Virus record (IMG/VR): IMGVR_UViG_3300042452_000944
Span: 1 to 52,494 of that record
Strand: one strand, 5' to 3'
DNA length: 52,494 nucleotides
Source: a virus
Shown: positions 7,443-39,826 of the stretch, piece by piece
Position numbering within the stretch: position 1 is the first letter of the stretch
Layout: the number at the start of each line of letters is the position of its first letter
Program-made: the position numbers and the translations under genes
Notes under the pieces: generated by a model
Told to the model about the DNA's origin: nothing
What the model saw: only the letters and a program-made list of their open reading frames with translations
The model's database searches: none

Positions 7443-7511
7443 TATTTTTTTAGTTCATTATAGTTAGGTTTACGGTTGATTTGCCCTATTAAAGAATAGG
7501 CCCAAAGGTCA

Positions 7512-8696
7512 TTATGCCGACTGAAGACCTTCCAAAGCGTAGAACTGAGGATTGGGTGCGATAACGTACCGAGGATTGTCTTGAACGAAAGGGGCGATAA
7601 TCGGTGCCGATCCACCAACAACCAAAATTTGAGCAAACTGATTGTGGATTTCTTTCCAACGAGTACGCATCTGGGTTTGGATATCGTCAATCCACTCAGG
7701 TAAGATCGCGTCGTAAGCAGTCTTAAAGTTGATAGCGTGAACAGCGAATGTGCCATCAGCGATCGCGTCTAGAATTTGGCCTTCTGATTTAATTAACCCT
7801 ACTTCAACCGCAATATGAGCGGCTAACGCGGAAGTAGCACCGTCTAGAACCAAATCGTAGTCTCTAACGATAGTCCCATCAGGATGAAACAATCGAGCGA
7901 TCGCTGTACCACCACCTAAGTCCAGAACACCGTTTAGATATTTAGGGTACTGATAAAGACCTTCCTTTAATGCACGATACCAGGCAAACTTACCTTCGGC
8001 GGCTACAATAACTCCCTTAACAGTTACGTTAAACTCACGACCGTTAACTGTAAAGTTATGCACACCTTTTAGATTCAAAAAAGGCGATCTTTGATCTTCG
8101 TCTTGGTCGTCGGGCACGGTACAAAGTAAGTTTTCGATTACAGCGTCTTGAGGTACTAGACCGGAAACGCCTGCGTAGAAAAATTGCTTAACTAGTTTCC
8201 ACTTATCACCACCAAAAGTAGGCTTAGCCAAAAATGAGCCAGCGATTTGACCAACAAGAAAACTGTTACCACCAAAACTAACATCGAAAGAAAGATCGTT
8301 AACAAAATCGTTAGTAGAGTAGTCAACGTCTTGGCGACTGGATTTTCTCAACGAATAACTGGGAAAGTTGATGATGGTTTTCCCATCAGTAATAGCGTTA
8401 AAACGATTACCTAGATCAAAACTGATTCGAGAGATTTGATTTTTTGTCTTTGAAGAAATGGCCATAGAAATTTTCCGCTCCGGTAGTGTAATACTACAAC
8501 TGGTATCTTTAGTATCATCTATCAAACTCAATTGTTCTAAACTAGGATCAGGAGGTAGAATCACTTCTAGATTGGAACCCCAAACGTTTTCCATTAATAG
8601 TTTTACGATTTGGCTAGTCGAAAGACCAGTTTGTTCGGCAGCTATACCTAAAGCTTGTGCGTATTTTCCAAAGAGTACAGGGCGAACAGAATTCAT
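7512..8696 (-). CDS. Actin-like ATPase, ParM/StbA type
   Basis: Filament-forming ATPase of the actin/Hsp70 superfamily, of the kind used for plasmid or phage DNA partition. Phosphate-1 motif FDLGN (D94-N97), phosphate-2 motif LDLGGGT (D259-T264) and adenosine motif VVGGSAPII (GGSA 361-364), followed by PNPQFYALEGL at the C-terminus. Length 394 aa. The ATG at 8696 avoids the 68-base overlap with the glycosyltransferase that an upstream start would create. Residues 1-78 precede the actin core and contain a helix-turn-like stretch (IAAEQTGLSTSQIVKLLMEN), which is unusual for ParM. Role inferred. Confidence 0.82.
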   Translation of the reverse strand: MNSVRPVLFGKYAQALGIAAEQTGLSTSQIVKLLMENVWGSNLEVILPPDPSLEQLSLIDDTKDTSCSITLPERKISMAISSKTKNQISRISFDLGNRFNAITDGKTIINFPSYSLRKSSRQDVDYSTNDFVNDLSFDVSFGGNSFLVGQIAGSFLAKPTFGGDKWKLVKQFFYAGVSGLVPQDAVIENLLCTVPDDQDEDQRSPFLNLKGVHNFTVNGREFNVTVKGVIVAAEGKFAWYRALKEGLYQYPKYLNGVLDLGGGTAIARLFHPDGTIVRDYDLVLDGATSALAAHIAVEVGLIKSEGQILDAIADGTFAVHAINFKTAYDAILPEWIDDIQTQMRTRWKEIHNQFAQILVVGGSAPIIAPFVQDNPRYVIAPNPQFYALEGLQSA

Positions 8697-8709
8697 TGTC
8701 TTTTTTTTT

Positions 8710-9579
8710 CTAAGAATTGATATATAGATCATAGCATCTGTTTGCGAAAGTCGTATCCCTATATTGGTATGTTTCAAAGAGGTTTTTGTAAAAGTCTGAC
8801 AATCTTTTAGATTTGCTTAAAAAGTTGATCGCATCTTGACCGTACAGATCAACTAGATCACATTGGTTATTCAATCTCATCTCGGCACATTGTCTAGCCA
8901 ATTCTGAATATCTTCTTTGTATCAGTATTTTATCAATGTTAAATCGTATGCTGTTAGATATAAATAACCTTTTATATAGAACTTCATCAACAAAACCCAG
9001 TTTGGATATTTCTATCAGTCTAAGCCACAGATCTCTATCTTGAGAGTAGTAGAAAGCGTTTCGATAACCACCAACGCGATCGTAGTGGTATTTTCTTATC
9101 ATTACTTCTCCACCAGTGAAGCAATTACGACCGTTGATTAATGAATATTGGAAAGTGTCGGGATGATCGCATACTCTAGTACGTCGGTATATATTACCTC
9201 CATGAGACATATCACAATCGAAAACATTACAACCCACAGCACTAAGATCGCGATCGTCCTTTAGAAGTCTATATTGTTTTTCCAATCGTGTTGGATAGGA
9301 AATATCTCCTGAACCATGGATGGCAATATAGTCACCAGATGATTGTTCAATGGCGTTGAGTAATCCATTAACAAAACCAATGTTTATGGAATGACGAATT
9401 ACTTTAAGTCGTGGATCTTGAAACTTTAGTAACTCTTCGTAGGTATGGTCCGTTGAACAATCATCGAAGGCAATGATCTCAAGGTTTGTGTAGGTTTGTC
9501 TTAATAGACTGCCAATAGAGGTTCTAACAAGGTTGCCGCGATTATAGAAGCCCGTTACAACACTAATTAAATCACTCAT
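8710..9579 (-). CDS. Glycosyltransferase, family 2
   Basis: GT-A fold nucleotide-sugar transferase. Motifs: the start strand LISVVTGFYNR, DDCSTD (39-44), GSGD (89-92) in place of the usual metal-binding DxD, and SQDRDLWLRL (179-188). At 289 aa it is a complete catalytic domain with no membrane anchor. It overlaps the MurA-like gene by 8 bases, so the two are co-translated. Possible roles are modification of host surface glycans or of phage DNA; the sequence does not decide. Confidence 0.85.
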   Translation of the reverse strand: MSDLISVVTGFYNRGNLVRTSIGSLLRQTYTNLEIIAFDDCSTDHTYEELLKFQDPRLKVIRHSINIGFVNGLLNAIEQSSGDYIAIHGSGDISYPTRLEKQYRLLKDDRDLSAVGCNVFDCDMSHGGNIYRRTRVCDHPDTFQYSLINGRNCFTGGEVMIRKYHYDRVGGYRNAFYYSQDRDLWLRLIEISKLGFVDEVLYKRLFISNSIRFNIDKILIQRRYSELARQCAEMRLNNQCDLVDLYGQDAINFLSKSKRLSDFYKNLFETYQYRDTTFANRCYDLYINS

Positions 9580-10831
9580 CGTCTTTATTAATGCTATGAA
9601 CTATGCCTAGCCCTCCAAGTTTTGTTTGTAGTTGATCATAGCCTCGTAGGGCCATATTTACCTTCCTGACTTTGCTAGGTCCATGATTGATAATTGCTGC
9701 CATCACCAAGGCCATACTACCCCGCAAGTCCGTTGATGTTACCACTGCCGAACCTGAGCGTTGACATCCATTGACGATGATTTTCCCTGAGTCCCAGGTT
9801 AAACAATTAGGGTAAAATCTAGATAATTCCTCAAGGTAGGTAGTGCGCTCTGGATAGCGATAGTCAAGGATTAGACTTCTACCCTTAGCATACAAAGCTA
9901 GAAGCACATAAAAGGGTTGCATATCGGATATGATGCCGGGGTGAGTACCACAGGCTACTTCAAAGGGCTGTAATCCGGAGGGAGCGATTGACTGTGGCGG
10001 AACCCAAACCGAATTAGAGTTTTGGAAGAAATCAAGCCCTATTCTACGGAGGTAGACTAAAGGGATTTCCATGAGATCAAACGGAACGTTCTCAACTAGA
10101 ACATTACCACCAGAGATCGCAGATAGGATAATCCAGGTTAAGGCCTCAATGCGATCTGAAATAATGGGAATTGTCGCTCCCCTAAGCTGTCTAACCCCCT
10201 CAATTTCAATTAGACTAGTTCCACTTACCGATATTTTTGCCCCCATTAAGATGAGCAAGTTAATCAGGTTTTCGATTTCGGGGGTGACATAGGCATTGTA
10301 GATTCTTGTAGTTCCCCTAGCAACTACAGCACATAATATGGCATTCTCTGTGCCTCCCACGGTGGATATGGGGAAATGAATGTCACCGCCGACGAGCTGA
10401 CCACTAACCCTAATATGATCTGGCTTTTCTTCCACCTGACACCCCAAGGATTGCCAGATCATTATGTGTAAGTCATACTTGCGACTACCAATATTACAGC
10501 CTCCTGGATAGGGGATATAGGCATTTCCTTGTCGAATTAATTGACCGGCGGCTAATAAATAGGTCGTTCTAATGGGAAATTTATAGTCCTCTAATTCCTG
10601 GGGTTTTAGATTGGAACAATTGAAGGATGCAGTCGAATCAAGGCTGACCTTTCCCCCCATTAACTCGATAAACCTTGCCTTGTATTGAACATCGAGTAGT
10701 TGGGTTGGGAAGTTAAGTAGGTTAATGGTTTCGTCCGTAAGCATTGATGCTGCCATCAGGCGAGTGGCAGCGTTTTTTGCTCCACTAACCCGAACCCTGC
10801 CTGAAGGAACCTGTTTGCCTTCAATCTGCAT
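9572..10831 (-). CDS. MurA-like enolpyruvyl transferase
   Basis: Closest in pattern to UDP-N-acetylglucosamine 1-carboxyvinyltransferase, the first committed step of peptidoglycan synthesis. It has the VSGAKNA motif (K19), the loop PGGCNIGSRKYDLH with the reactive cysteine at C112, the TDMQ-like SDMQPF segment and the LRGSMALVMAA motif near the C-terminus. About 419 aa, full length. A GTG 8 codons upstream is an alternative start. The stretch 10381-10440 is 31/60 G+C against 20/60 for 8881-8940 in its neighbour, and no full GCGATCGC octamer is seen, suggesting recent transfer. It overlaps the GT2 gene. Confidence 0.85.
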   Translation of the reverse strand: MQIEGKQVPSGRVRVSGAKNAATRLMAASMLTDETINLLNFPTQLLDVQYKARFIELMGGKVSLDSTASFNCSNLKPQELEDYKFPIRTTYLLAAGQLIRQGNAYIPYPGGCNIGSRKYDLHIMIWQSLGCQVEEKPDHIRVSGQLVGGDIHFPISTVGGTENAILCAVVARGTTRIYNAYVTPEIENLINLLILMGAKISVSGTSLIEIEGVRQLRGATIPIISDRIEALTWIILSAISGGNVLVENVPFDLMEIPLVYLRRIGLDFFQNSNSVWVPPQSIAPSGLQPFEVACGTHPGIISDMQPFYVLLALYAKGRSLILDYRYPERTTYLEELSRFYPNCLTWDSGKIIVNGCQRSGSAVVTSTDLRGSMALVMAAIINHGPSKVRKVNMALRGYDQLQTKLGGLGIVHSINKDDE

Positions 10832-10859
10832 GGTCAGATCTTTATGATATATCACATAC

Positions 10860-14655: not shown

Positions 14656-14783
14656 CTTAGGTTGTTTGCATAGACGATCTCATCATAGCACGAAAATGGT
14701 GAGGTGTATAGAGAAGGAACGATCGCGATCGTCTTGATCAGATATAAGTATATGTACTCAGATCGTCTAATTTGAGTGAATTT

Positions 14784-15146
14784 CATTTTGACCAATCGAT
14801 CAGGTCAATTTGGTCCAATCGATTAGTCAAAATGGAAAAGGATAGATGATCGTGATCAATCATACAAGGTTCGGTTAATTTCACCCCCAATCATCCAAGA
14901 TGCCTGAAGCGCACCTGATCTCTAGTTTTGAATGAACATACAAGTGCGATCGCGTTATTAAGATCGAAAATGGACAAAAAAACGCAGTTACTATATATAC
15001 TATAGCGATCGCGTTTTTTTGTCCAAATCGAGAGTAAAAGGCGAGGGCTCTCTCTGGCATCTTGGATGATTGGGGGTGTCTTTTGATATATCTAACTTTT
15101 TGGACAATCGATCAGACCAATTTGACCCAATCGATTGGTCAAAATG
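14784..15146. repeat. Nested inverted/direct repeat array (origin core?)
   Basis: Outer pair: two related 50-base imperfect palindromes at 14784-14834 and 15097-15146 sharing CAATCGATCAG...CAATCGATT...GTCAAAATG. Middle pair: a perfect 23-bp inverted repeat, 14882-14904 with 15056-15078. Inner pair: a perfect 15-bp inverted repeat TGGACAAAAAAACGC, 14971-14985 with 15011-15025, around an AT-rich centre ending in a HIP1 octamer. The pairs are nested and roughly concentric near 14980. Confidence 0.85.
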
Positions 15147-15349
15147 AGGAAGAGATGGACTATCGCGATCGTTCCCATATATTACTAGCTCTTTACTTTG
15201 CCTATGATCCTTCTGACACTCTCTGATCTGAATAACAAGGTTTTTTATGGTAAACACTGACTTTTGTCCGAATGCGATTTTTTCTTAACGAGAAAATGCG
15301 GGTTTCAGCGATTTGAACACCAATTTTTTATCGTTTTTCACTTTTTTCT

Positions 15350-15679
15350 ATTAGATCGCTATGATCCATATATATCAATGGTTTCAACGTCCCCCATTAT
15401 AAGTAGCCCTTGCCTCTCTCTTGCTTTCTCTGATCGCTATAACTATTGATATATATGGATTTGAGCCTTATCCTTTTCAGATCTGAAGAAAATCGTGGGC
15501 ACCTATTATTATTATATTTAGACCTCCACGGTTCTCTTCAAATCTGAAAAAGAATGTTCAAAAGTATTGATATATAACGATCATAGCGATTAGTAATGCT
15601 CTGAATGTACACAAAAAGCTTAGATATAAACACAGATCGATGGCAGAGCAAGAGAGAGGGCTACTCAAATGGGGGACGT
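15350..15679. repeat. Second nested inverted-repeat array
   Basis: A perfect 16-bp pair, ATCCATATATATCAAT (15364-15379) with 15445-15460, which also pairs imperfectly, extended over ATCGCTATGATC, with 15566-15593. A long imperfect pair, 15387-15432 with 15644-15679, shares ACGTCCCCCATT, AGTAGCCC and CTCTCTCTTGCT. A shorter pair around CTTTTCAGAT...TGAAGA lies between. Non-coding. Confidence 0.8.
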
Positions 15680-15755
15680 AATAATATATAGTATAAAAAC
15701 AATGATCGCGATCGATAAGAGAGCGTACCTCATAAATACTTTCTTTTTTCTTTTG

Positions 15756-15784
15756 TTGACTTTTATTAAACTCTAAAGTATTAT
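15756..15784 (+). promoter_or_regulatory. Promoter of the primase-helicase operon
   Basis: TTGACT (15756-15761), a 17-base spacer and TATTAT (15779-15784) form a near-consensus sigma70 promoter about 50 bases before the ribbon-helix-helix gene. Confidence 0.75.
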
Positions 15785-15802
15785 TAAAACCTAGAGTATT
15801 AT
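15773..15802. repeat. Direct repeats over the -10, likely operator
   Basis: CTAAAGTATTAT (15773-15784) and CTAGAGTATTAT (15791-15802) are 12-base direct repeats, 18 bases apart start to start, covering the -10 and start site. Ribbon-helix-helix repressors commonly bind such repeats at their own promoter, and one is encoded just downstream. Confidence 0.55.
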
Positions 15803-15831
15803 GATCAATGTAAATATACTTAGAACTCCAG

Positions 15832-16044
15832 ATGTCAACACGCGGAAAATACAGATCTCACAAACGGGCACATAGAACAGATCCGATCGCGATCAATATG
15901 GGCATTTCGATTAGTGTAGAGAATAGAGCGCTTCTTGAGGAACTTTCCAAAAAGATCGGGTATTCGATGTCGAACACGATCGCGATCGCTCTTCAAGAAA
16001 TGGATCAACGTTTACGATTAGAGGATGTTGGTGATGAAGTTTAA
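15832..16044 (+). CDS. CopG-like ribbon-helix-helix regulator, 70 aa
   Basis: Small DNA-binding protein: basic N-terminal arm, beta strand ISISVE (about 25-30), helix RALLEELSKKIG and second helix MSNTIAIALQEMDQRL, the order expected for a CopG/Arc fold. It overlaps the primase-helicase start, and operator-like direct repeats cover its promoter, recalling the copG-rep autoregulation of plasmids. Expected role: keeping replication protein levels in check. Confidence 0.72.
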   Translation: MSTRGKYRSHKRAHRTDPIAINMGISISVENRALLEELSKKIGYSMSNTIAIALQEMDQRLRLEDVGDEV

Positions 16045-18673
16045 GGTTTGTTTGGATACGAAGTCATTCTCGACGAAACCAGCAACGAATGATATTAAGG
16101 GTATTAGTTATCGTCTACCTAAGAATGAGATTGAACTAACACTGGATGAACTTGCGGAAGCTGCGATTCAAGGTTATTCGTTCACTACTGCTACTTTTGG
16201 TGGTAAGACAAAAAATAAATCAAACTGGATTGGTCCTCAGTATTTATTTGGTAAGGACTTTGATCGCAATACTGAACCTGAATATATCTACAACAAGGCT
16301 CAGGAATTGGGTTTAGGATTTGGATTTGCCTACACTACATTCTCTGATACTCCTGAATATCGCAAGTTGCGTTTCGTATTTTACGTTGATAATCCTATTA
16401 TCATTACTTCTACTCAAGCTGAGGGTATCTTGACTGCACTGGATACTTTCTTTGGTGATAGTGACATTTCGTGTAAAAATTGCGATCGTGTTTGGTATGG
16501 AGGAAAAGAGAGAATCTTTGGAGATAGACCTCAACGACCCATTACAATTGAATCTCTGATCCAACTACTCGAATTAGCAGCGGTTGTTAAATCCGATAAA
16601 GTCAATAAAGCTCGGGATCTAAAGGTCGTTCAAGATAAAAACGAAACGCTTCGTGAGTTATTAGATCAGAATCAGATTGATACAAAATTTATTGGCTACA
16701 AACTTCCCGACATAATAGAAGATGTGGACATCGAAGCGACATTAGTGCCGCAACTCAAGATATTACAATCCATTAAAGAATGTGGCTTCATCGAACCTGT
16801 AAGTTGTTATGAGAGAGGTGAACGTCTACACCGCCCTCAAATATGGGGATTAGCCATGAATCTTCGCTATATCAAAGGTGGATTAAACTGGCTAGAGAAA
16901 TATATGGACAGAGATGGTCGATACGAAGATTATCACTATGACATTCTCAGTGTTAGTGGTTATCATCCAACACGGTTACAAACGTTCAGCCCTTTTGAAT
17001 CCGATCATTTGGCCTATAACCTGTTATACTTAACTGGCAGGAAGGAATATGCTATTACTGAAGATACGCAATTCTTAAGGAGCCAATCGGTGTTTACAGT
17101 AGAAGCCGCCCGCCATCATTTGCAAAATTATTGGAATCAGTTTATTAACGCTGACGATAACAAAGTCTATGTTTTTAAGACGATTACCGGATTAGGCAAA
17201 ACTCAATTGATTGCGGATCTCATCAAAGATGGCAAAACTACTGGATATACGATCGCGTTTTCTACCCATGATCTTAAAGATGAATTTTGCGAAAGAGCTA
17301 ACGTACTGAACGCTGAAGAATTTGCCAAAGCTAAACGAGATCGTACTTTGCAATCTAACGTTACTTACGTTAATCCTAAGCTGCCTGACAGCCTCCCTAG
17401 CGAGATTAGAACTAAGTTGAGCTATCTATACTCTACAGGTGCAGAAAAGGCCGCTGAGAGGCTTCTGAAGGGCTATATCAAACTTCTTAAAACTACAGGT
17501 CAAGATACTGAAGAACTTGACGATTATCGTGTAGCCAAACAAGCGATCCACGGTTGTACTTTTGGAAACATTGTCACTACTCACGCTAATGCTTTTAGTA
17601 AAGATCGCAAAGGCAAGCATCTCTATGGTCACAATAATACGATTATTTTCGACGAAGATCCTTTGACTGAGATTGTCAACACCTTTACTGTAACTCTTAG
17701 AGATTTTAAGACGTTACGTGGTCATACAAAGAATGCAGAACTTCGTCGTATCTGCGATTACTACATCAACCATATTGAAAACGATCCTGCTGTTCTTCGA
17801 CAGAAAGAGGAATTTACTACAGTGGGTATGGGTGAGGAGATTGTTTCTATAATCACTCAAACTCAACACGACAAGTTGTTCAATAGTAATATCGGTCAGT
17901 TCTTCACTAGTGATGTAGCTTTCTACAGTTCTCATTCTTCTAGGTGGGATGATCCTCAGAATAAGGACCACATTGTTTTTGTAGTCAAGAGAACCTTACC
18001 AACAAATCGTAAGATTGGAATTTTTTCAGCAACGGCTGATGAGAAAATATATCGCTTACTCTTAGGCGATCGTTTGGTATTTATCGATCTTACTTCTGTA
18101 CTCTGTCAAGGTCAATTAGTTCAGCACACTAAACATTCCTGTTCTAGAGCTTCCCTTAATAACGAAAACGTATTGGGAAAGGTTGTGGAGGAGGTGAATC
18201 AGTTAGGTCATCCTGTTATTACTTTTAAGTCTTTCCAAAAGCATTTTGATGGCGCTATTGAGGATGTTTATTTAGGTAATAGTTCTGGTACCGATAAGTT
18301 AAATGGTCAATCTGTAACCATTGTAGGCACCCCTCACGTTCCTTATACCACCTATATATTATTTGCAAAGGCGCTAGGGTTGGATGTAACCTCATTCTTT
18401 CTACATAAACCCGTTAATCGTAGAATTGAACGCAATGGATTTGTATTCCCTTTGATGACTTTTGAACGTGATGATCTAGTTGATGTTCAGTGTTATTTTA
18501 TTGAACGTGAACTGTATCAAGCTGTTGGTCGTCCACGTTTAATTAACAACGATGTCGAAGCTCACCTTTTTAGTAATTATCCTTTACGCCTTTATTCCAG
18601 TAAGGACGATCGCGTGATGATGGATAGTCGCATTGTCTGCGTTCAAGACAATAATGAATCAACCGGACTATGA
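16034..18673 (+). CDS. AEP primase-SF2 helicase fusion, replication protein
   Basis: About 879 aa. The N-terminal third looks like an archaeo-eukaryotic primase of plasmid/phage type: metal motif KDFD (D75, D77), then FAYTTFSDTPEYRKLRFVFY and CKNCDRVWYGG. The C-terminal half is a superfamily 2 helicase: Walker A GLGKT (386-390), Walker B FDEDP (D540-E541), motif III SAT (665-667) and motif VI QAVGRPR (829-835). The ATG at 16034 is preferred because GAGG lies 9 bases upstream, whereas at 16025 it abuts the codon. It overlaps the CopG-like gene. Likely the replication initiator/primase-helicase. Confidence 0.8.
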   Translation: MKFKVCLDTKSFSTKPATNDIKGISYRLPKNEIELTLDELAEAAIQGYSFTTATFGGKTKNKSNWIGPQYLFGKDFDRNTEPEYIYNKAQELGLGFGFAYTTFSDTPEYRKLRFVFYVDNPIIITSTQAEGILTALDTFFGDSDISCKNCDRVWYGGKERIFGDRPQRPITIESLIQLLELAAVVKSDKVNKARDLKVVQDKNETLRELLDQNQIDTKFIGYKLPDIIEDVDIEATLVPQLKILQSIKECGFIEPVSCYERGERLHRPQIWGLAMNLRYIKGGLNWLEKYMDRDGRYEDYHYDILSVSGYHPTRLQTFSPFESDHLAYNLLYLTGRKEYAITEDTQFLRSQSVFTVEAARHHLQNYWNQFINADDNKVYVFKTITGLGKTQLIADLIKDGKTTGYTIAFSTHDLKDEFCERANVLNAEEFAKAKRDRTLQSNVTYVNPKLPDSLPSEIRTKLSYLYSTGAEKAAERLLKGYIKLLKTTGQDTEELDDYRVAKQAIHGCTFGNIVTTHANAFSKDRKGKHLYGHNNTIIFDEDPLTEIVNTFTVTLRDFKTLRGHTKNAELRRICDYYINHIENDPAVLRQKEEFTTVGMGEEIVSIITQTQHDKLFNSNIGQFFTSDVAFYSSHSSRWDDPQNKDHIVFVVKRTLPTNRKIGIFSATADEKIYRLLLGDRLVFIDLTSVLCQGQLVQHTKHSCSRASLNNENVLGKVVEEVNQLGHPVITFKSFQKHFDGAIEDVYLGNSSGTDKLNGQSVTIVGTPHVPYTTYILFAKALGLDVTSFFLHKPVNRRIERNGFVFPLMTFERDDLVDVQCYFIERELYQAVGRPRLINNDVEAHLFSNYPLRLYSSKDDRVMMDSRIVCVQDNNESTGL

Positions 18674-20641: not shown

Positions 20642-20702
20642 ACTTTTTTCTATAATACACGAGGTCTTCTATGACCGTCAATAGAAACACCAACTGGATA
20701 TT
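20640..20702 (-). pseudogene. Duplicated C-terminal tail of gene 21617-22018
   Basis: Reads [18 protein letters not shown] then stop, against [18 protein letters not shown] then stop in the intact gene. A stop codon two codons upstream of QLVF shows it is only a remnant. Thirty-three bases (20664-20696) are identical to 21641-21673. The Dam gene lies exactly between the two copies. Confidence 0.8.
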
Positions 20703-20756: not shown

Positions 20757-21608
20757 TTAGAATTCATAAGGTGTAGTGTTGTAATTAGTAATAATAGCTT
20801 CAATCATGGGATTGCGGTTGTTATTACTTGCTCCAACATGGTAAAAATGTTCTTTAGTTAAAATATTAAACTTACCCCATAAAGATTTAACATATTCATT
20901 TTCTCTGAAGTCATTATGATGCCATGTAGATAATATAAATTTACTTTTTGTGTTTGATAGAGCTTTGAAGAGACACGTTTCGTGCTCACTATCCCAACTG
21001 TTGTAATAATCAACGTGTCTATCAATGTATGGTGGATCACAGTAAATAATATCTTCTGCCCCACTTTCGGAGATAGTTTTCTCGAAATCCTGACATTTAA
21101 AAATAAAATCTTTAGTCTTTAACAAAAGGCAGACATGAGAAATCTGATTAGTAATTTTCGTAATGTAAGCCTGAGCAAATCGCTGCGGTTTTCGACAGAA
21201 AGGTATATTGAATTCTCTTTTGCGGTTAAACCGAATCATTCCATTGAAGCCAGCCCTATTCAAAAACAAGAAATCGAGTGGTTGATGCTCCTTGTTGAAC
21301 CTCTCACGCACCTTGTAGTAGTGAGATTCGCCTTTATCTAAAAGCTTCGCACCTTCCTCTTCTAAGTAGCTTCTGACTTTTTCTGGCGTAATATTTCCGT
21401 CAGAAATACCTTTATAAAAGGCGATTAAATGAGGGTTTGTATCGCATAAGAGTGCATGTTTTGGTGCTAGGTTAAAGGCGACAACACCCGTACCCATAAA
21501 TGGCTCAACCCATCTTCCGTCAAATTCATGTGGGACTATGCTACTAATCCAAGGAACAAGCTTAGTTTTTATTCCTTGAGATTTTATGGGTGGAATATTT
21601 ACTTTCAT
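20757..21608 (-). CDS. Second DNA adenine methylase, D12/Dam class
   Basis: N6-adenine methyltransferase of 283 aa. It has the N-terminal [16 protein letters not shown] motif EPFMGTG (F37-G41), FNRAGFNGM-like [14 protein letters not shown] (115-128), IPFCRKP and catalytic DPPY (191-194). It is more like restriction-modification methylases in size than the first Dam. The ATG at 21608 is preferred over a start 26 codons upstream that would overlap the neighbouring gene. No cognate endonuclease is visible. Direct repeats flank it. Confidence 0.9.
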
Positions 21609-21616
21609 TTCTTGTG

Positions 21617-22018
21617 TTATCTTTTTTTGTAATATATGATGTCTTCTATGACCGTCAATAGAAACACCAACTGAATAATCGGCCACAGTAGACGCAGCCC
21701 TCTATAGTCAGATCGCATCTCTACATTCAGAAAGTGATGATTTTCCTTCTCTTCTTCAATGGTGAAAATTAACATACAGTTATTAACGTTAACTTTCGTA
21801 ACGTTGCGATCTTGTTCTATAGTCACTTCTTGTGTGTGACCAAAACGTTCTAAATTAAATCGTACTAATTCAGAAGATTTTGAAAAAACTTCTTTTACTT
21901 TTACACCGCACAAAGTAAACCAATGCGCTTTGTCTAGATGCCATATATCTAGGAGATGGTTTCTTTGAAGACTAATAGGTATATCAAACCTATATTTATT
22001 TTTAGCGATCAGATACAT
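21617..22018 (-). CDS. Membrane-anchored hypothetical protein, 133 aa
   Basis: A soluble beta-rich N-terminus is followed by one C-terminal hydrophobic segment ([20 protein letters not shown]) and a basic end, so probably tail-anchored in the membrane. The ATG at 22018 overlaps the previous gene by 17 bases; a start at 22063 is possible. Third gene of the nblA operon. Its last ~18 codons are duplicated at 20640-20702. Confidence 0.65.
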
Positions 22019-24145: not shown

Positions 24146-24745
24146 AGTTAGTCTGTATGACCAATCATCCGTAGCGATAGATCCTCCTTCACAGTAGTAT
24201 CTTTTGGAGGCCACTTTGAATTTAGGTAAGGGAGGATTATCGCTACCACTTAAACTTGCGTCTACAAACTGAACTCTATTGTTAGGTAGAAGTGCAAATT
24301 GACCGTTATCTAACGCGATCATATTAAAACTTTTATGTTCTTCGGGATCTTCTGTATAACTCAGAGATAATCTATCTGATGGCGTATAACTATCTATAGT
24401 AAGAACATAATAACCTCGTATCTTTTTGTTTCTTATGTAAGCTATACAATCTATATTGTTTACAACACTTTTTTTTATTACATGAATGTAATTATCAAAA
24501 CAATCCCATAACTGTAATTCGTTTGTCTGTAAATAGTTATTCCCCTCTTTGTGTAGAATACATTCTATTGGAAGTTTGTCATATAACGCCCCGTATTCTG
24601 GTATATACACCTCAAATCTAAACGCCTCTCCAGGTACACTTTTTACAGTGGCTAATCGCGCCCTTATAAGTCTTTTAGAGTCACCATTCTCTACATACTC
24701 AGATCTTATAAGAACTGGGAGAGGCGGCAGATTCACTATGTTCAT
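24125..24745 (-). CDS. Hypothetical protein, 206 aa
   Basis: Unknown; beta-rich with no motif recognised. The ATGA overlap with 24742-24972 shows it is the last gene of a seven-gene minus-strand operon that runs back to 26083. Confidence 0.65.
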   Translation of the reverse strand: MNIVNLPPLPVLIRSEYVENGDSKRLIRARLATVKSVPGEAFRFEVYIPEYGALYDKLPIECILHKEGNNYLQTNELQLWDCFDNYIHVIKKSVVNNIDCIAYIRNKKIRGYYVLTIDSYTPSDRLSLSYTEDPEEHKSFNMIALDNGQFALLPNNRVQFVDASLSGSDNPPLPKFKVASKRYYCEGGSIATDDWSYRLTSEESSS

Positions 24746-24972
24746 AGCGGTGTCAGAAACAGCTCTTTACTATCTACATACATTGGATTAACGTTTAGCG
24801 ATTTTGTTATGTAGTATCCATCTCTTTTCCCGTGTTTGGCAAAAAAGACAATACCGTAATGTAACATCGCACCATCCTTGTATTGTATGGCTATAGCTTT
24901 TCTATATGCCGTGTGTTTACCTTTAATCTTTCCAATGTAATGTATACACCAGGCTTTTCTAGGACTTTTCAT
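24742..24972 (-). CDS. Hypothetical basic protein, 76 aa
   Basis: Unknown, basic and beta-rich. AAAGG ribosome site before the ATG at 24972; it overlaps both neighbours slightly. Confidence 0.6.
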   Translation of the reverse strand: MKSPRKAWCIHYIGKIKGKHTAYRKAIAIQYKDGAMLHYGIVFFAKHGKRDGYYITKSLNVNPMYVDSKELFLTPL

Positions 24973-25171
24973 TTTTTACCTTTTTGAAAAGTTCTATCAC
25001 CTTTGTTTCTATTTCTCCACGACTTTTATTTATCACTTCGTCGTCCGAGTTTGTGACAGTTTTCAATTTTTGATAAAGAACTTCCAATTCTTTTCTACCA
25101 AATGTTTTTACCAAATACGAGATTTTTTCCAACGTGGTAGTTTTAATTAACTGATCCAAGTAGTTCAACAT
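24959..25171 (-). CDS. Hypothetical helical protein, 70 aa
   Basis: Unknown; helical and charged (GRKELEVLYQKLKTV). Overlaps the preceding gene by 7 bases and the following one by 14. Confidence 0.6.
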   Translation of the reverse strand: MLNYLDQLIKTTTLEKISYLVKTFGRKELEVLYQKLKTVTNSDDEVINKSRGEIETKVIELFKKVKNEKS

Positions 25172-25530
25172 TTGTTTTGCTCGTTGTCATAAAGTATTAG
25201 AGCCATTTCTAGAGTAGCACGGAAGCAACGTTCGAGTACATCTATTTTTCCTTGATCTTCATTAGCTATAAGGGCTTCTGTTACAGCTTGAACAAGGTAA
25301 CATAGCAGATCTAAACAATTTTGAAACCCGTCAATATACGGAGATTTACCGTTTTGAGGCTGTATATACAGACCGTCTCTGTTATAGAGATATTCTGATC
25401 GCTCAGCTATAGCTTTCCCTATTTCCGTATAACGATCCATACCGTTTATACGTTGCAGGACGATCGCAAAACACGGCATTAAGTTATTTTTTTTGGGATT
25501 ATTTTGTTCAATAGTTGCGATCCTTGTCAT
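25165..25530 (-). CDS. Hypothetical protein, 121 aa
   Basis: Unknown; the C-terminal half is helical (CLDLLCYLVQAVTEALIANE). Coupled to 25527-25784 by an ATGA overlap. Confidence 0.6.
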   Translation of the reverse strand: MTRIATIEQNNPKKNNLMPCFAIVLQRINGMDRYTEIGKAIAERSEYLYNRDGLYIQPQNGKSPYIDGFQNCLDLLCYLVQAVTEALIANEDQGKIDVLERCFRATLEMALILYDNEQNKC

Positions 25531-25784
25531 AGAGATTCGTACAAAGTTTGTATAAATTGATATATGACGCGATCGTTCTCGTATTCTTTGGCTAATCGCG
25601 CCAATAATGTTCTAATAGCTATACTACATCCATATTGAGCTATATTGGTTCCGGTAGCTATTTCATATATGTCTCTATGCAAAGAATTATTATCGTTGAT
25701 GTTCTTAGAAACAACTCTTTTCAACGCTACCAATTCTAATTCTACTTTAGTGAGCCTATCGTAAATATCAGTCTGGTCTCCCAT
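25527..25784 (-). CDS. Hypothetical protein, 85 aa
   Basis: Unknown; the N-terminus is coiled-coil-like (LTKVELELVALKRVVSKNIN). Overlaps the preceding gene by 17 bases and the following by 4. Confidence 0.6.
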   Translation of the reverse strand: MGDQTDIYDRLTKVELELVALKRVVSKNINDNNSLHRDIYEIATGTNIAQYGCSIAIRTLLARLAKEYENDRVIYQFIQTLYESL

Positions 25785-25956
25785 CGAAGTACTCCTTTAC
25801 TCCTTTAACAAGTACGAACTCTGTTTCGTTTCGTCCACAGCCCCAACAATATGCGATAATCAACACAGCTACTTGCACAGATTGTTGAAAGGATAATTGT
25901 GATACAATACTCCTTGCTAACAATTCAAGGGTGTCATTCGTTAGGTGTTTCATCAT
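25768..25956 (-). CDS. Hypothetical protein, 62 aa
   Basis: Unknown; contains a semi-hydrophobic stretch with CWGC (QVAVLIIAYCWGC, about 28-40). Overlaps its neighbours on both sides within the operon. Confidence 0.55.
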   Translation of the reverse strand: MMKHLTNDTLELLARSIVSQLSFQQSVQVAVLIIAYCWGCGRNETEFVLVKGVKEYFDGRPD

Positions 25957-26083
25957 CTCTAAAAAGTAAAAGAAAAACGAACGTGAAACTTACGGTTAGC
26001 GATAATGTTAACATGGTGCCCAATAAAAAAGAAAATAAGGCAAGACTTATCGGCTCTGTTTGTACTAAGTTATTTATGTCCAT
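25934..26083 (-). CDS. Small single-span membrane protein candidate, 49 aa
   Basis: One strong hydrophobic segment (LALFSFLLGTMLTLSLTVSF) followed by a charged tail RDDETPNE. The start at 26083 is tentative; ribosome site poor. It would be first in the minus-strand operon, divergent from portal. A plus-strand frame (25899-26123) competes for the same DNA. Confidence 0.45.
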   Translation of the reverse strand: MDINNLVQTEPISLALFSFLLGTMLTLSLTVSFTFVFLLLFRDDETPNE

Positions 26084-26123
26084 AATGGTTGATCTTATTA
26101 CTCCGATTGAGAGTTTAACATAA

Positions 26124-27491
26124 ATGGCTTCTTTTTTCAAGAATGTTAGCGATCTATTATACTTAGTCAACGGCAGATCGCGTTCTCGCAAGCGTGGAAG
26201 ACCTTCTCAAGGTGCTGATCTTATAGGAAGCCAAGATCAACTTCGTCCTGTCGGTCACAACACTTACAGAACGAGAGTATGGGACATTGTAGAGTTACCC
26301 ATACGAGGATTACTTTACGGTGATGTAGCATTAGCCATAGAGTGTGAGGAGATGATAACATGGAGTCCTGAGATGACAACATGTTTACGTCTTATCAGTC
26401 AAAATTGTTTCCAGTCATCTGATGGTAGTGTTGAATCGTGGCGTGTTAAAACAAAAAGGGATGATGGTTTACTGTTAGAACGCTCTCCTAACGATAGAGT
26501 AATAGGAATCGCAAGGGATTTATCCAATAGATATTCTGGTAGAGATCCTGTACTTGGTGCTCAACGCCTCGAACAAGCTGTATACGGGGCGTATGGTAGA
26601 GGTGATGCTTTTATGGAATTAAGCATCCAAAACGATGGTGCAGGACGATGGTACATTGAGCGATCTAATTATTTACCAGCATGGTCGATGTTTGTAGAAG
26701 AGGATGAAACAGGGAAATTAATCAGCTATCGACAACAAGTAAGAACACAAACTTCTGAAAGCGATCGCATTTGGGGAGGTTATGATACAGCTCGTATATT
26801 ACAGTTCTCTTATGGTATGCGACAACGTTATGGATTCCCAGCGTGTTTCGCACAAATAGAAAGCTGGCGTAAAATGAAAGATGCCAGTATTCTTTTAGAG
26901 CGATCGGCAGGAGAATCACTGGCCTTTTGGATACACACCTGTGGTGAACAACACGATAATACTTATTTACAAAATTATAGAAGCGAATTTGAGGCCAACT
27001 TAGCAAGTGGTCAAGGTTACATAAGTCACGTCTATCTACCTCATGGTAGTGACATTAGACGCAGTAGTGAAGCCAATCCTTCTTTGAAAGGACTTATGGA
27101 TTACTATATGCAAACGCGGTATTCCTGTATGTTACCTACGGTTCCTGTACCTCTTATTGCAGGACTAGGTATTGTTCAAGGTGCAAGTAAAGAATTAGGT
27201 AATTTACCTGCTATATCCTATGGTAGAACGATCGCACATGCGAGATCTATCATTGCCGAACAGATTATATACGCCATAGGACTTGAATATACATTGAACT
27301 ATGGATATGAAGAATGGTGTGAAGAACGACCTTTTGTTGAAATAGCATGGCCTAGTTGGGTAAACTTTGATGGTATCCCTGGATTAAACCCAGTTAGTCA
27401 ACCTAGTAAACCTATAGAAGTTCAGGAAGAGGAAGCAAAAGAGAAATTTGTTCAACTTAACGGGAATTTTGTAAGAGCCAATCTTGGATGA
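26124..27491 (+). CDS. Portal protein
   Basis: Forms the dodecameric DNA gate at one capsid vertex. Length 455 aa, in the normal range. The recognisable portal-like core is FMELSI...GRWYIERSNYLPAWSMFVEEDETGKLISYRQQ (about 172-214), then GFPACFAQIESWRKMKDASILLERSA (252-277) in the wing/stem region. First gene of the virion cluster; the terminase normally found next to it is not in this window. Acidic C-terminal tail. Confidence 0.75.
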   Translation: MASFFKNVSDLLYLVNGRSRSRKRGRPSQGADLIGSQDQLRPVGHNTYRTRVWDIVELPIRGLLYGDVALAIECEEMITWSPEMTTCLRLISQNCFQSSDGSVESWRVKTKRDDGLLLERSPNDRVIGIARDLSNRYSGRDPVLGAQRLEQAVYGAYGRGDAFMELSIQNDGAGRWYIERSNYLPAWSMFVEEDETGKLISYRQQVRTQTSESDRIWGGYDTARILQFSYGMRQRYGFPACFAQIESWRKMKDASILLERSAGESLAFWIHTCGEQHDNTYLQNYRSEFEANLASGQGYISHVYLPHGSDIRRSSEANPSLKGLMDYYMQTRYSCMLPTVPVPLIAGLGIVQGASKELGNLPAISYGRTIAHARSIIAEQIIYAIGLEYTLNYGYEEWCEERPFVEIAWPSWVNFDGIPGLNPVSQPSKPIEVQEEEAKEKFVQLNGNFVRANLG

Positions 27492-35964: not shown

Positions 35965-37806
35965 ATGGGCAAAAACTCCTTACGTGAAATTATCAAGCTG
36001 GGTAACCTCAGCGAAGAAGAACAGATGAAACTATCTATCAACCTTCAAAAATCTGGAGTTCAAGCTCATAATAACGGCTTTGCGAAGGCCCTGGGCCTTT
36101 CCTCCAGCATGGTTGTCAACGATTCTGTTGATGAACGAGAAGTTGAAGAAGTTAGCGATCAAGACGAAGAAACAGTCGAAAAAGCTGTTGAACCTGAACT
36201 AGAAATTGAGCAGGAAACAGCCGTTGTAGAAAAATCTGAACCCGCTATCACGGCTGAAATTCTACAACAGTTTGTCAGAACAGCCGTCGAAAATGCGATC
36301 GCTCCTTTGCAGGAAGAGCTAGAGAAAGCTAAGGTTCAAAATCGAACACTGGCTGATGAATTGAATAAGGCTAAGGAATCTGACAAGGTTCTCGAAGGTC
36401 TATCTAGGTTGATTGGTCGTCCAGAAGGTGCGAAAGAAATCTCTATGCCTAACGTTAATATTCGTACATCTCCTAACGGCGATCGTTTGGATGGACGACT
36501 AGCCGAATTTATGTCTATCCGTGACAGCCTGGGTGTCACCTATAGGACTACCAGTGGCGGTTCTTTGATGCCTGTGTACCCCACCCACGAAATCGATCAG
36601 TGGATGGCAGAACAACGGTACAATGATAGCAGCTACAAGTCTCTTCTCAAAGAGATGACTGATCTGGGTAAGAAACATGGTTTATTCCGTGGTTCTAAGA
36701 TGATCACTGAATCTGAGCGGAGAGCTGCTACCACTTCCTCTGATGTTCCTGGTGGTTTTCTGGAAGTTCTATCTTCCATCATGCGGGTTAGCTCCCGTCC
36801 CGGACTGGTGTTCTGGCAATTCCCTCAAACTGTTCACCGGTACGATCGCGGTAACGGCGAAGTTATTGACATCCCTCGGGCTGCTTATCCTGAGGTAGCG
36901 ACCAATTCGCAACAGCGTTTGCTCTCTGGATCTAATACCTACGTTCCCATTGATTCTAGTAATCAACGGGTTCGTACTGGCCTTGTTAAGATGATTCTTA
37001 ATGAATACGGTCGTGGTCGTTCGGAAGCACCTCCTATCTCTATCCCTCGGTTCGTAGAAGAGTACGCCATGTTGCCTCTGATGAGGATCTTGGAAAGAGA
37101 TCTTTTCTACGACTATTACAACTGGGAAGATCTGGTTATCCGTGAACAGTGGAGACCTACCACTAAGAACTACTATAACAATGGCGATAACATTGTTACA
37201 GCAGCGGCTTCTGTGACTGTGGGTGGTACTATGACACGGCAGTTTCTCAATCAGGTATACACAAGGCTATCGAACGATCGCGTTGTGCCTCTACCTGATG
37301 GTAACTACGGTCTTGTTACCAATCCTACCGCTATGTCTCAACTGAAGAGTTCTCTAGTCAACCAATACTTTGAAGCTCCTAGTGTTGAACAGATCCGGGA
37401 AATGACCAACATGATGCTTGGTGATTACCCTGCTGGTGAAAACATCAAGGTTGAAGGTTATCAAGGGTTGTTTGAGGGCTTCCACATTTGGCAAACTAAC
37501 GCCTTTGCTAATGCTACTGGGGCAGAAGGTGTAGCTACTGAAACCAATGGTGATAGCACCTCTTCTGTGGTTCGTACTTCTTACGCCTTTGGTGGTATGG
37601 CTTCTGGTCGTGGTATCGGCGGCTCTGGTGTTCAGATTCTCTTTGATGAGAAGACTGACTTTGGTCGGATGGATCGCGCCATTTGGCAATCCTACGAAGC
37701 CCACGGACCACTAGACGTTGACGCTACTGGTTACAATGATACATCTGACATTCCTCAGGAAACACGGGTGTTCAAGGTCAACACGTTTGATGTAGCACTT
37801 ACCTGA
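35965..37806 (+). CDS. Major capsid protein with N-terminal scaffold domain
   Basis: 613 aa from the ATG at 35965, which has a perfect Shine-Dalgarno (GGAGGTGA); the longer GTG start is rejected. The N-terminal ~150 residues are acidic and coiled-coil (LQEELEKAKVQNRTLADELN), as in HK97-type delta/scaffold regions removed on maturation. The remainder (VIDIPRAAYPEV ... VEGYQGLFEGFHIWQTNAFA ... AYAFGGMASGR) has capsid-fold character. Base composition and codon use differ from neighbours (less AT-rich, preferred CGG/CCT), consistent with very high expression. Confidence 0.82.
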   Translation: MGKNSLREIIKLGNLSEEEQMKLSINLQKSGVQAHNNGFAKALGLSSSMVVNDSVDEREVEEVSDQDEETVEKAVEPELEIEQETAVVEKSEPAITAEILQQFVRTAVENAIAPLQEELEKAKVQNRTLADELNKAKESDKVLEGLSRLIGRPEGAKEISMPNVNIRTSPNGDRLDGRLAEFMSIRDSLGVTYRTTSGGSLMPVYPTHEIDQWMAEQRYNDSSYKSLLKEMTDLGKKHGLFRGSKMITESERRAATTSSDVPGGFLEVLSSIMRVSSRPGLVFWQFPQTVHRYDRGNGEVIDIPRAAYPEVATNSQQRLLSGSNTYVPIDSSNQRVRTGLVKMILNEYGRGRSEAPPISIPRFVEEYAMLPLMRILERDLFYDYYNWEDLVIREQWRPTTKNYYNNGDNIVTAAASVTVGGTMTRQFLNQVYTRLSNDRVVPLPDGNYGLVTNPTAMSQLKSSLVNQYFEAPSVEQIREMTNMMLGDYPAGENIKVEGYQGLFEGFHIWQTNAFANATGAEGVATETNGDSTSSVVRTSYAFGGMASGRGIGGSGVQILFDEKTDFGRMDRAIWQSYEAHGPLDVDATGYNDTSDIPQETRVFKVNTFDVALT

Positions 37807-37818
37807 TTGGTGAACTAA

Positions 37819-38190
37819 ATGACTCAGCAGCTTTCTAAAGACGATTACAAAGCTTGGTTAAGTACACAAGGATGGCGAATTATCCAATCTGAAGCAGAAA
37901 CTGTCAATTTTGATAAGGCTGACGACCAGAAATGGATTGAAGTCATCGATGAGATTGTGGAACTGAAATATCCTCCCCAAGTGGAAGATATTCAGGTTGA
38001 ACAATCGGTACAAACTGAAGCGATCGCTATTGTTTCTGAAGAAGCTGCTGAAGTCAACTTCGATTACATTAAGGTGGATGGGATAAGAATTTGTCCCGTT
38101 TGTAACTATCCTATGCGTACAGCTTTGGAAAGTTCAGATCCCATCTGTCCTACATCTGTTCCTAATTGTCCTCGTCTCGGAGTTTCCTAA
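37819..38190 (+). CDS. Small zinc-motif head-cluster protein, 123 aa
   Basis: Acidic N-terminus and a C-terminal CPVC...CPTSVPNCP cluster (about 96-119), which could bind zinc. Overlaps the next gene by one base (TAATG). Perhaps a minor head protein; function unknown. Confidence 0.65.
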   Translation: MTQQLSKDDYKAWLSTQGWRIIQSEAETVNFDKADDQKWIEVIDEIVELKYPPQVEDIQVEQSVQTEAIAIVSEEAAEVNFDYIKVDGIRICPVCNYPMRTALESSDPICPTSVPNCPRLGVS

Positions 38191-38672
38191 TGCCTAAAAG
38201 ATCATACGTTCATAATCGTGTTGTACGCGACAATCTTAGTGGTAAGGCTGTAGATTTCTACGATTTCGCCGTCCATGGTGGTGCTCAAGCAACTATCACA
38301 CTGCCTCTAGAACTTGAATCCCAGTCTATCATCACTAGCGGTTTCGTGTATGTGGACACCCCTTGTGTGGGTTCTGGGGCCTCTATTGCTGTTGGCCTTA
38401 ACACCAACACTGATCTTCTTGCTGCAACTGGTGTAGCCTCCTTTACTGATAACGCTGTACTGAACTTGATTCCTTCTACTACTGCTAATATCAGTGGTGA
38501 TGGTCATAACTCAGGTGTTGCTAACAACCGTCCTTTGGTACTTACCGCTGATCGCCACTTGAAAGTGACCATCAGTGGAGCAGCTCTTACCGCTGGTAAA
38601 CTAGCGATCGTTCTGTTCTATGTCGGTCCCTTTGATGGCGTAAGACCTGTAACCTACAGCATGGAAGGTTAA
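38190..38672 (+). CDS. Head decoration-like protein, 161 aa
   Basis: All-beta, Gly/Ala/Thr-rich (AVGLNTNTDLLAATGVASFT ... LTADRHLKVTISGAALTAGK), the composition of capsid cementing or decoration proteins, directly after the capsid gene. The ATG at 38190 overlaps the previous stop (TAATG). Confidence 0.6.
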   Translation: MPKRSYVHNRVVRDNLSGKAVDFYDFAVHGGAQATITLPLELESQSIITSGFVYVDTPCVGSGASIAVGLNTNTDLLAATGVASFTDNAVLNLIPSTTANISGDGHNSGVANNRPLVLTADRHLKVTISGAALTAGKLAIVLFYVGPFDGVRPVTYSMEG

Positions 38673-38675
38673 CAG

Positions 38676-39416
38676 TTGGCAATATTAACGCCTACTGACC
38701 TTGTTAAATTAGCGCCTGAGTTGGAATTAGACTCAGGCGCTATTAACAGTGCCATATTGACAGCGCAAATGATCGCTGAATCACCTATGGGTGCTAATCG
38801 TCCTTTAGAAGAGCAACGATTTGTTGAAACACCTATATTAAACGGCAAAGGTATTATTAAACTATCTAGATTGCCTATTAATAATACTGTTCAAAAGGCT
38901 CCTGTTGTATCCATTCGCGGTAGACGCTTATTAGCCTCTTTTGGATTACCTCTATCTGACAATCAATGGATAACACTTAATCCTTCTACTGATTATGAAT
39001 TTGATTATCAACTAGGAGAAGTAAGAATTTTAAGTGCTAATCTTGCGGGTCTTACTACTGAGTCTTGGGGATTAGGTAGTGCAGCTAGGGCTCGATATAG
39101 TGGTAGACCATTTAGACGCCCTACACAAGCTCACGAAAAGTCTGAAATGAAGGTCGAATACACTACAGGGTTTGATTTCAAAGCTGTTCCCATAGATCCA
39201 AGGGCGCAAGAGATAAAGATCGCTCTTATATCCATACTTAAACTACAAAGAAGTCCCATGGCTTCTGGTATGAAACAATATACACTTAACAATTTTTATT
39301 CCGTTCTTTATGGTAGTGAAGCTACCAACGTAAATACCAGTAGTACTGATAGTACGTTACTACAAGACGTTTTGATGGTACTAAAACGTTATCGTCCTAG
39401 GGAGTTTGTGTCATGA
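38676..39416 (+). CDS. Head-tail connector (adaptor) protein, 246 aa
   Basis: TTG start after GGAAGG. The opening LTPTDLVKLAPELELDSGAI followed by NSAILTAQMIAES fits connector proteins of the gp6/gp15 type, as does its slot between head and neck genes. Assignment mainly by order. Confidence 0.55.
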   Translation: MAILTPTDLVKLAPELELDSGAINSAILTAQMIAESPMGANRPLEEQRFVETPILNGKGIIKLSRLPINNTVQKAPVVSIRGRRLLASFGLPLSDNQWITLNPSTDYEFDYQLGEVRILSANLAGLTTESWGLGSAARARYSGRPFRRPTQAHEKSEMKVEYTTGFDFKAVPIDPRAQEIKIALISILKLQRSPMASGMKQYTLNNFYSVLYGSEATNVNTSSTDSTLLQDVLMVLKRYRPREFVS

Positions 39417-39826
39417 CTATACTTCCTATTACACCTCCAGTAATTCCTCTCGTTCCTAACGCAACGTTATTCTTTCAAGTGCCTACAGGTCAACATCAAA
39501 TTGATCCTGTGACGCTTAATGAAGTACAGATCTTTGAAGAGATTCAGCTTAAAGCCGCGATCGTTGAATTAGGTTATGAAACCTTCCAGAATGAGAGTCC
39601 CGGTCTAGACAATATGGAACGTAGAGTTAGAGGATATATCCTTGTTAAATCTCTACCTGAGGGTCTTAGAAGCAGCGATCGCGTCAAAGTTATAGTGAGT
39701 AGTAGTGGTAGGCCCGAGGAAGGTACATTGTTTTTCACTGAAAGACTAACGGCGATGTTTTATAACATTGTACCTTCTGTTGGTATTCCCTTCGAGGCTT
39801 ATTTTCAGACTACAGGAGGAGGTTAA
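39413..39826 (+). CDS. Head closure (stopper)-like protein, 137 aa
   Basis: Beta-rich protein overlapping the connector by 4 bases. The pattern RRVRGYILVKSLPEGLRSSDRVKVIV...FFTERL matches stopper/head-completion proteins. Second in the connector-stopper-neck-terminator series. Confidence 0.55.
   Translation: MTILPITPPVIPLVPNATLFFQVPTGQHQIDPVTLNEVQIFEEIQLKAAIVELGYETFQNESPGLDNMERRVRGYILVKSLPEGLRSSDRVKVIVSSSGRPEEGTLFFTERLTAMFYNIVPSVGIPFEAYFQTTGGG

Follow-up and report, generated by a model that had tools for sequence, protein, structure and literature searches.

Lambdoid phages carry the iterons of their origin inside the gene for the O initiator (PMC7466680). The Sulfolobus plasmid pRN1 encodes a CopG protein (orf56) and a primase-polymerase/helicase (orf904) together with a stem-loop origin, which is required for replication and is conserved in structure but variable in sequence, and similar phage stem-loops are noted by the same authors (PMC4234260). 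In oriV of RSF1010, the ssiA and ssiB sites are hairpins recognised by RepB', a primase of the archaeo-eukaryotic primase (AEP) superfamily (PMC4434180), while in the PLE satellites of Vibrio cholerae the repA allele covaries with its cognate origin, and the two are swapped as one module (PMC8263062). The pairing of a Rep protein with its origin has usually been deduced from single plasmids.

The DNA analysed here, referred to as the window, comprises the 52,494 bases of a virus record and is a fragment of the genome of a ~139-kb freshwater phage. It contains, at 14716–15175, an array of nested inverted repeats which mixes two kinds of element, with iterons outside and a long hairpin at the centre. 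We consider it somewhat probable that this array belongs to a replication-origin region, modular and probably accessory in character, in the genome of the ~139-kb freshwater cyanophage. By analogy, pRN1, RSF1010 and PLE may serve as precedents for each half of an origin composed of iterons and a hairpin.

Compared with the lambdoid origin, the relative G001 likewise has short tandem dyad repeats in an O-like gene immediately before the replicative helicase gene, and the hairpin of the window is flanked by the same repeats. Unlike in lambdoid phages, G001 has extra clusters outside the initiator gene, adjoining a second type of replication gene and hairpins; the unit here is 23 bp with an unrelated sequence, and the O-like gene is outside the window, whose repeat copies do not lie in any such gene. 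As in pRN1, a small gene, here tentatively copG-like, is followed by a primase-polymerase/helicase gene (AEP by predicted fold), accompanied by a stem-loop conserved in structure and not in sequence. However, the helicase here is of the SF2 XPD/DinG type, that of pRN1 being SF3, and the hairpin is located upstream of copG instead of downstream of rep and is two to four times longer. As the helicase is not SF3 and the hairpin is upstream, the system does not belong to the pRN1 family. The PLE origins differ in being of the iteron type and not hairpins, and the available part of that report mentions no old origins left in tandem; here the carrier is a phage and Rep is a predicted PrimPol-helicase.

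Source genome, relatives and host

The window has four close relatives, G004 (37,516 bases), G002 (71,158 bases), G003 (89,011 bases) and G001 (139,448 bases). G001 possesses a 102-bp terminal repeat, which fits a complete circular map of ~139.3 kb, and is apparently a complete genome; its gene content includes a terminase-like protein, tail proteins, DnaB and RecD2, and it is ~96% identical to the window outside a replaced cassette described below. G004 covers window positions 14979–52494, its start falling within the central stem of the array. The host is probably cyanobacterial, as suggested by HIP1 octamers and by a Rep relative in Pseudanabaena. DNA and protein searches of a phage collection yielded no relatives of the array or of Rep, and the array DNA gave nothing beyond weak 28-nt matches against 38 genomes of the Pseudanabaena family.

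Nested repeats of the array

The preliminary description reported three nested repeat pairs, placed between divergent gene blocks and 0.7 kb from the primase-helicase operon, and all three are present at that position, the end of the array being 0.69 kb before copG (15832). The outer pair (14783–14832 and 15098–15147; 50 nt, 84% complementary) has arms that are each palindromic by themselves, the middle pair (14882–14907 and 15053–15078; 26 nt, 96%) has a perfect 23-bp core, and the inner pair (14971–14995 and 15001–15025) is perfect over 15 bp in its outer part. A fourth inverted repeat (14716–14733 and 15158–15175; 17/18 nt paired) encloses the other three and contains the palindrome GATCGCGATC at 14721 within its left arm. 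The centres of the four pairs drift from 14945.5 through 14965 and 14980 to 14998, and the pairs, described earlier as concentric, are therefore nested but not strictly concentric. These inverted repeats are far above chance: the four top ungapped scores in the intergenic region 14656–15831 are 27, 23, 19 and 17, against a top score of 11 in 60 dinucleotide shuffles of the same region. DNA folding of the strand at 14770–15160 gives a z value of -12.7. The HIP1 octamer noted at the centre exists in two copies (14946 and 15005) instead of one. A second, larger nested array, closer to the operon (15355–15690), had been missed, and the flagged array is not a single unique structure but consists of iterons plus one of two tandem hairpins.

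Iterons and the O-like initiator gene

The outer arms, previously called 50-base palindromes, are indeed palindromic, but each is explained by two tandem iterons with 23-bp spacing, whose unit has dyad symmetry. The left pair (14786–14837, plus strand), which is also a palindrome, comprises the units 14792–14814 and 14815–14837 (scores 25.1 and 18.0), and the right pair (15098–15147, plus strand) comprises the unit 15104–15126 and an opposite-strand reading at 15116–15138 (scores 17.4 and 22.9). The scores derive from a matrix trained solely on the repeats of L098 and L110, which lie inside O-like/DnaD-like genes of unrelated phages. With a cut-off of at least 14 bits, this matrix has five matches in the 52-kb window, all of them within 14792–15138, while 20 of the 22 matches in G001 fall into four clusters, at 14.0–14.2 kb (locus B, one of two rep loci in that genome), 36.57 kb, 94.6 kb (locus A, the other) and 122.2 kb; after dinucleotide shuffling, 139 kb of sequence contains ~1.4 matches on average.

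The second G001 cluster (36568–36647) is inside an O-like gene (36148–37425; 425 aa), which matches helicase-loader/O-like initiator families (phrog_6493, E 1e-32; phrog_345, E 7e-10) and is directly followed by the gene for DnaB (37563–39692; DnaB_C, E 1.8e-91). Repeats of the 23-bp type are also present within initiator genes of the otherwise unrelated contigs L098, L104, L110 and L112, where the repeat-bearing genes match replication-initiation/helicase-loader families. For the outer pair, the view that the array does not have the usual iteron design is wrong; this pair is iteron-like and matches repeats in phage initiator genes. The other three G001 clusters are intergenic, and two of these occupy the gaps between divergent genes that precede the copG-rep operons. 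In a related phage group (the G429 group), one iteron unit is found before a terminase-like gene.

The cluster at 122.2 kb (G001 122217–122343), at a distance of 86 kb from the O-like gene, is a non-coding duplicate of the iteron segment in that gene; it shares 76% identity with the in-gene segment over ~152 nt, falls between listed open reading frames and is possibly a third initiation or regulatory site. Several copies of a repeat with GAGTATAAGTGCGTA, GGTACCTCT and AGGTGCCA in this order are found in G001 (L024 13640–13950), with the left genes on one side and the locus B iterons on the other.

The copG-rep operon and its protein

The operon is preceded by a sigma-70-like promoter (15756–15784, plus strand; TTGACT-17-TATTAT), located downstream of both hairpins. 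The gene copG (15832–16044, plus strand) encodes a ribbon-helix-helix-like protein of 70 aa and overlaps rep; its assignment as CopG-like is weak, with PSK_trans_fac as the top Pfam match (E 0.019, below the cut-off). A small gene is found directly before rep in all six rep loci compared (window, G001-A, G001-B, G429, G430 and G426), with Pfam matches below the cut-off.

The gene rep (16025–18673, plus strand) encodes a protein of 882 aa, which has no significant family in Pfam and no significant sequence match in the PDB. On the basis of structure predictions built on shallow alignments, Rep is predicted to combine an N-terminal AEP primase-polymerase with a C-terminal SF2 helicase of the XPD/DinG type. 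The predicted N-terminal domain (mean pLDDT 80) has archaeo-eukaryotic primases as its top structural matches, including the PrimPol of cyanophage S-2L (Z 8.8), RepB' of RSF1010 (Z 8.3) and a CRISPR-associated Prim-Pol (Z 8.2); the Z values are moderate, yet the leading matches are nearly all primases of the AEP superfamily. The modelled C-terminal part matches XPD/DinG helicases (Foldseek E 9e-11), and PADLOC yields a weak match of Rep to PbeC (E 0.003) confined to the helicase part. The system may thus resemble RSF1010 in the modelled N-terminus of Rep and in having hairpins, here nearly strand-symmetric, while the ssi sites differ in being 40 nt. The helicase and the primase of RSF1010 are separate proteins.

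Among 386 cyanobacterial genomes, one full-length relative of Rep was identified (Pseudanabaena SR411), the others mostly corresponding to the N-terminal domain. Distant relatives adjoin integrases (called from their sequences, not by a domain search) in mobile elements of Pseudanabaena and Epilithonimonas. No long hairpin of the kind described below is present upstream of the Rep homologue in Pseudanabaena, which counts against the origin reading.

Hairpins upstream of copG

The core hairpin of the array (14882–15078; ~197 bp) has arms at 14882–14907 and 15053–15078 and an inner stem at 14971–15025, and each of its strands folds with a z value of about -10 to -14. The second long-hairpin region (15355–15690) contains a stem at 15387–15679 and an inner hairpin at 15471–15553, with z values of -10.8 and -13.2. 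This second hairpin adjoins the window's own copG-rep and is presumed to be cognate to its Rep. The motif TTGATATATA occurs at 15446–15455 and 15567–15576 (both plus strand) and at 15369–15378 (minus strand), and similar motifs are located within or beside the hairpins of other rep loci. The palindrome GATCGCGATC is found again after the second hairpin (15704–15713), and this 10-mer also occurs at module borders in related loci.

A long hairpin (193–399 nt) lies upstream of the copG promoter in 6/6 rep loci, and iterons are found at both rep loci of G001. The nine hairpins have folding z values of -5.7 to -13.8 on either strand, and the hairpin types are strongly divergent in sequence but retain their stems. 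In eight elements, 7 of the first 11 stem pairs are changed on both sides, with non-pairs in 5/88 cells; the pairs were counted by a script from the stem base, as a MAFFT alignment of the arms misplaced two elements, and outside the stem base the elements share too little sequence for reliable alignment.

Cassette exchange between rep loci

G001 encodes two copG-rep operons, of which locus A (91103–93709) is syntenic with that of the window and specifies a Rep 34% identical to the window's, and locus B (15143–17692) specifies one 31% identical. Three further rep loci (G429, G430 and G426) were obtained by a palindrome scan. Across the six loci the Reps are 29–75% identical, while the flanks are 90–98% identical. 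The segment exchanged in G430 and G426 relative to G001-B has its borders at identical bases (14822 and 17699), with Reps of 30–59% identity, and the segment 15506–18646 of the window is replaced in G001 by a different hairpin and the 34%-identical Rep.

Tandem hairpin pairs are present at three rep loci, where the upstream member matches another Rep type. The core hairpin of the window is 99% identical, in inverted orientation, to the hairpin beside rep of G001-A, though the Reps of the two loci are 34% identical, and G001-A in its turn still carries the left half of the second hairpin of the window. Similarly, a G430 hairpin (G430_1) shares 97.8% identity with the hairpin of G001-B, the Reps being 59% identical, and a G426 hairpin (G426_1) is of the G429/G430 type (about 80–93% in pieces) with a Rep 29% identical to theirs. 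From these sequence comparisons, we read the hairpin, copG and rep as a cassette that is exchanged as a whole, with the resident hairpin left behind. A possible fixed pairing of Rep and hairpin is drawn from the six loci, among which G429 and G430, with similar Reps and similar hairpins, provide the single direct test.

Possible origin function and alternative explanations

In the proposed scheme, the outer repeats would be iterons and presumed binding sites of the O-like/DnaD-like initiator of the phage, while the core hairpin would belong to a second system, in which hairpins are paired with a cassette of copG and a primase-polymerase/SF2-helicase (Rep). We infer that the initiator, bound to the flanking iterons, would open the DNA, so that the hairpin could either extrude or become accessible in single-stranded form, and that the primase of Rep would specifically recognise its cognate hairpin and prime there, giving origin activity. 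Rep and hairpin would be transferred together, as a single cassette, from one phage to another, often without loss of the older hairpin. The rep of the window would use the hairpin at 15387–15679, and the core hairpin of the flagged array, which has the opposite orientation in G001, would be retained from another Rep type as a relic or a second origin.

The earlier suggestion of a replication origin thus remains plausible, given the repeats of the type found in initiator genes and the hairpin family linked to a PrimPol-helicase, but its points on a single structure, a non-iteron design of the outer pair and GC skew do not stand. The cumulative GC skew of G001, proposed as a check, has a broad minimum at 84–104 kb, which includes the array but follows gene orientation, and the strand-separated third-position (GC3) skew of G001 contains no replication signal; skew was rejected as origin evidence since it tracks the gene strand. 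Rep is not necessarily the driver of replication, as DnaB and an O-like protein are encoded by the phage itself.

In a further-reaching reading, which is possible though rather doubtful, the identity of the replicon in this cyanophage lineage is switched by exchange of a cassette of hairpin origin, copG and PrimPol-helicase at a fixed site, and the flagged array is a retained origin framed by the iterons of the main initiator, a composite of two unrelated initiation systems. If so, each switch would leave the earlier origin hairpin upstream, and the succession of earlier replicon types would be physically recorded in the locus. Such switching could be driven by escape from origin-directed nucleases, from satellites or from incompatibility. 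Otherwise near-identical phage genomes here carry Rep alleles of 29–60% identity, each beside its own hairpin and with older hairpins kept, so it becomes directly testable by what rule AEP primases and hairpin origins are paired and what selection underlies the switching of replicons in phages, and candidate origins are supplied for large freshwater cyanophages.

A purely regulatory role is unlikely. In that case, the 23-bp repeats would be operators through which a phage regulator, perhaps the O-like protein in the role of a repressor, controls divergent early promoters, and the hairpins would insulate or tune the copG-rep promoter. The location of three G001 clusters out of four between genes, including the two in the divergent gaps before copG-rep, the unit before the terminase-like gene in the G429 group and the copG-rep promoters just downstream of hairpins are all consistent with this, and iteron clusters at promoters could indeed be operators, which counts against the origin reading. 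However, conserved units occur in initiator coding sequence beside DnaB, the place of the origin in lambdoid phages (PMC7466680), and also within O-like genes of unrelated phages, while the hairpins precede the promoter instead of forming part of the leader, and they accompany the Rep allele in exchanges. It is improbable that the hairpins encode structured or antisense RNAs controlling rep expression or copy number; extreme RNA folding energies and covarying stems would suit such RNAs, but both strands fold equally well, and the similar numbers of G-U pairs on the two strands (57 vs 69, summed with the core counted once; no clear strand bias) lend no support to a one-strand RNA. The core is also inverted between the window and G001 at 99% identity, the copG promoter is beyond the hairpin, and an Rfam scan returned no family at the gathering score, the sub-threshold matches being mostly of microRNA type.

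That same inversion, the different place of the core in G001 and its 23-bp terminal inverted repeats are features expected of a MITE-like mobile inverted repeat or an invertible DNA switch, an explanation with little probability, as relatives of the hairpins in the window and G001 are confined to rep loci and no target-site duplication is seen at the borders of the core; the neighbouring sequence differs too, which indicates that a cassette was rearranged and that the core was not simply inverted. A telomere-resolution (protelomerase) site of a linear phage-plasmid would account for large nested palindromes and for the start of the G004 contig within the central stem (14979), but is highly improbable: the terminal repeat of G001 suggests a circular map, the same core is internal to the G001 contig, the points at which contigs break fall at the variable cassette, and no protelomerase was found among the proteins scanned, which represent part of the open reading frames. 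The reading of the array as part of a modular origin region is preferred.

Additional features of the window and G001

A 58-bp direct repeat (about 90%; window 20643–20700 and 21621–21677) flanks a D12-class adenine methyltransferase gene (20757–21686); G001 is without the stretch between the repeats, and the gene thus looks like a gained or lost cassette. The region 7445–8710 of the window, containing an actin-like gene (ParM/MreB-like, with weak Pfam matches), is absent at that position in G001, and pieces of it are found elsewhere in G002, near the rep region, so that it looks mobile. On the minus strand, 9572–10855 encodes an EPSP-synthase/MurA-like enzyme that shares about 33% identity with bacterial MurA, adjoining a glycosyltransferase gene (8710–9579), and the two are possibly cell-wall auxiliary genes. 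A giant open reading frame (43702–52494; >2931 aa) runs off the end of the window and is 5072 aa in G001; G004 and the window end at exactly the same base. A tail-tip J-like protein is encoded by L025 4232–6868 (G001 24232–26868), with a Hint-type match (PF07591) at residues 18–135 which is possibly an intein-like insert.
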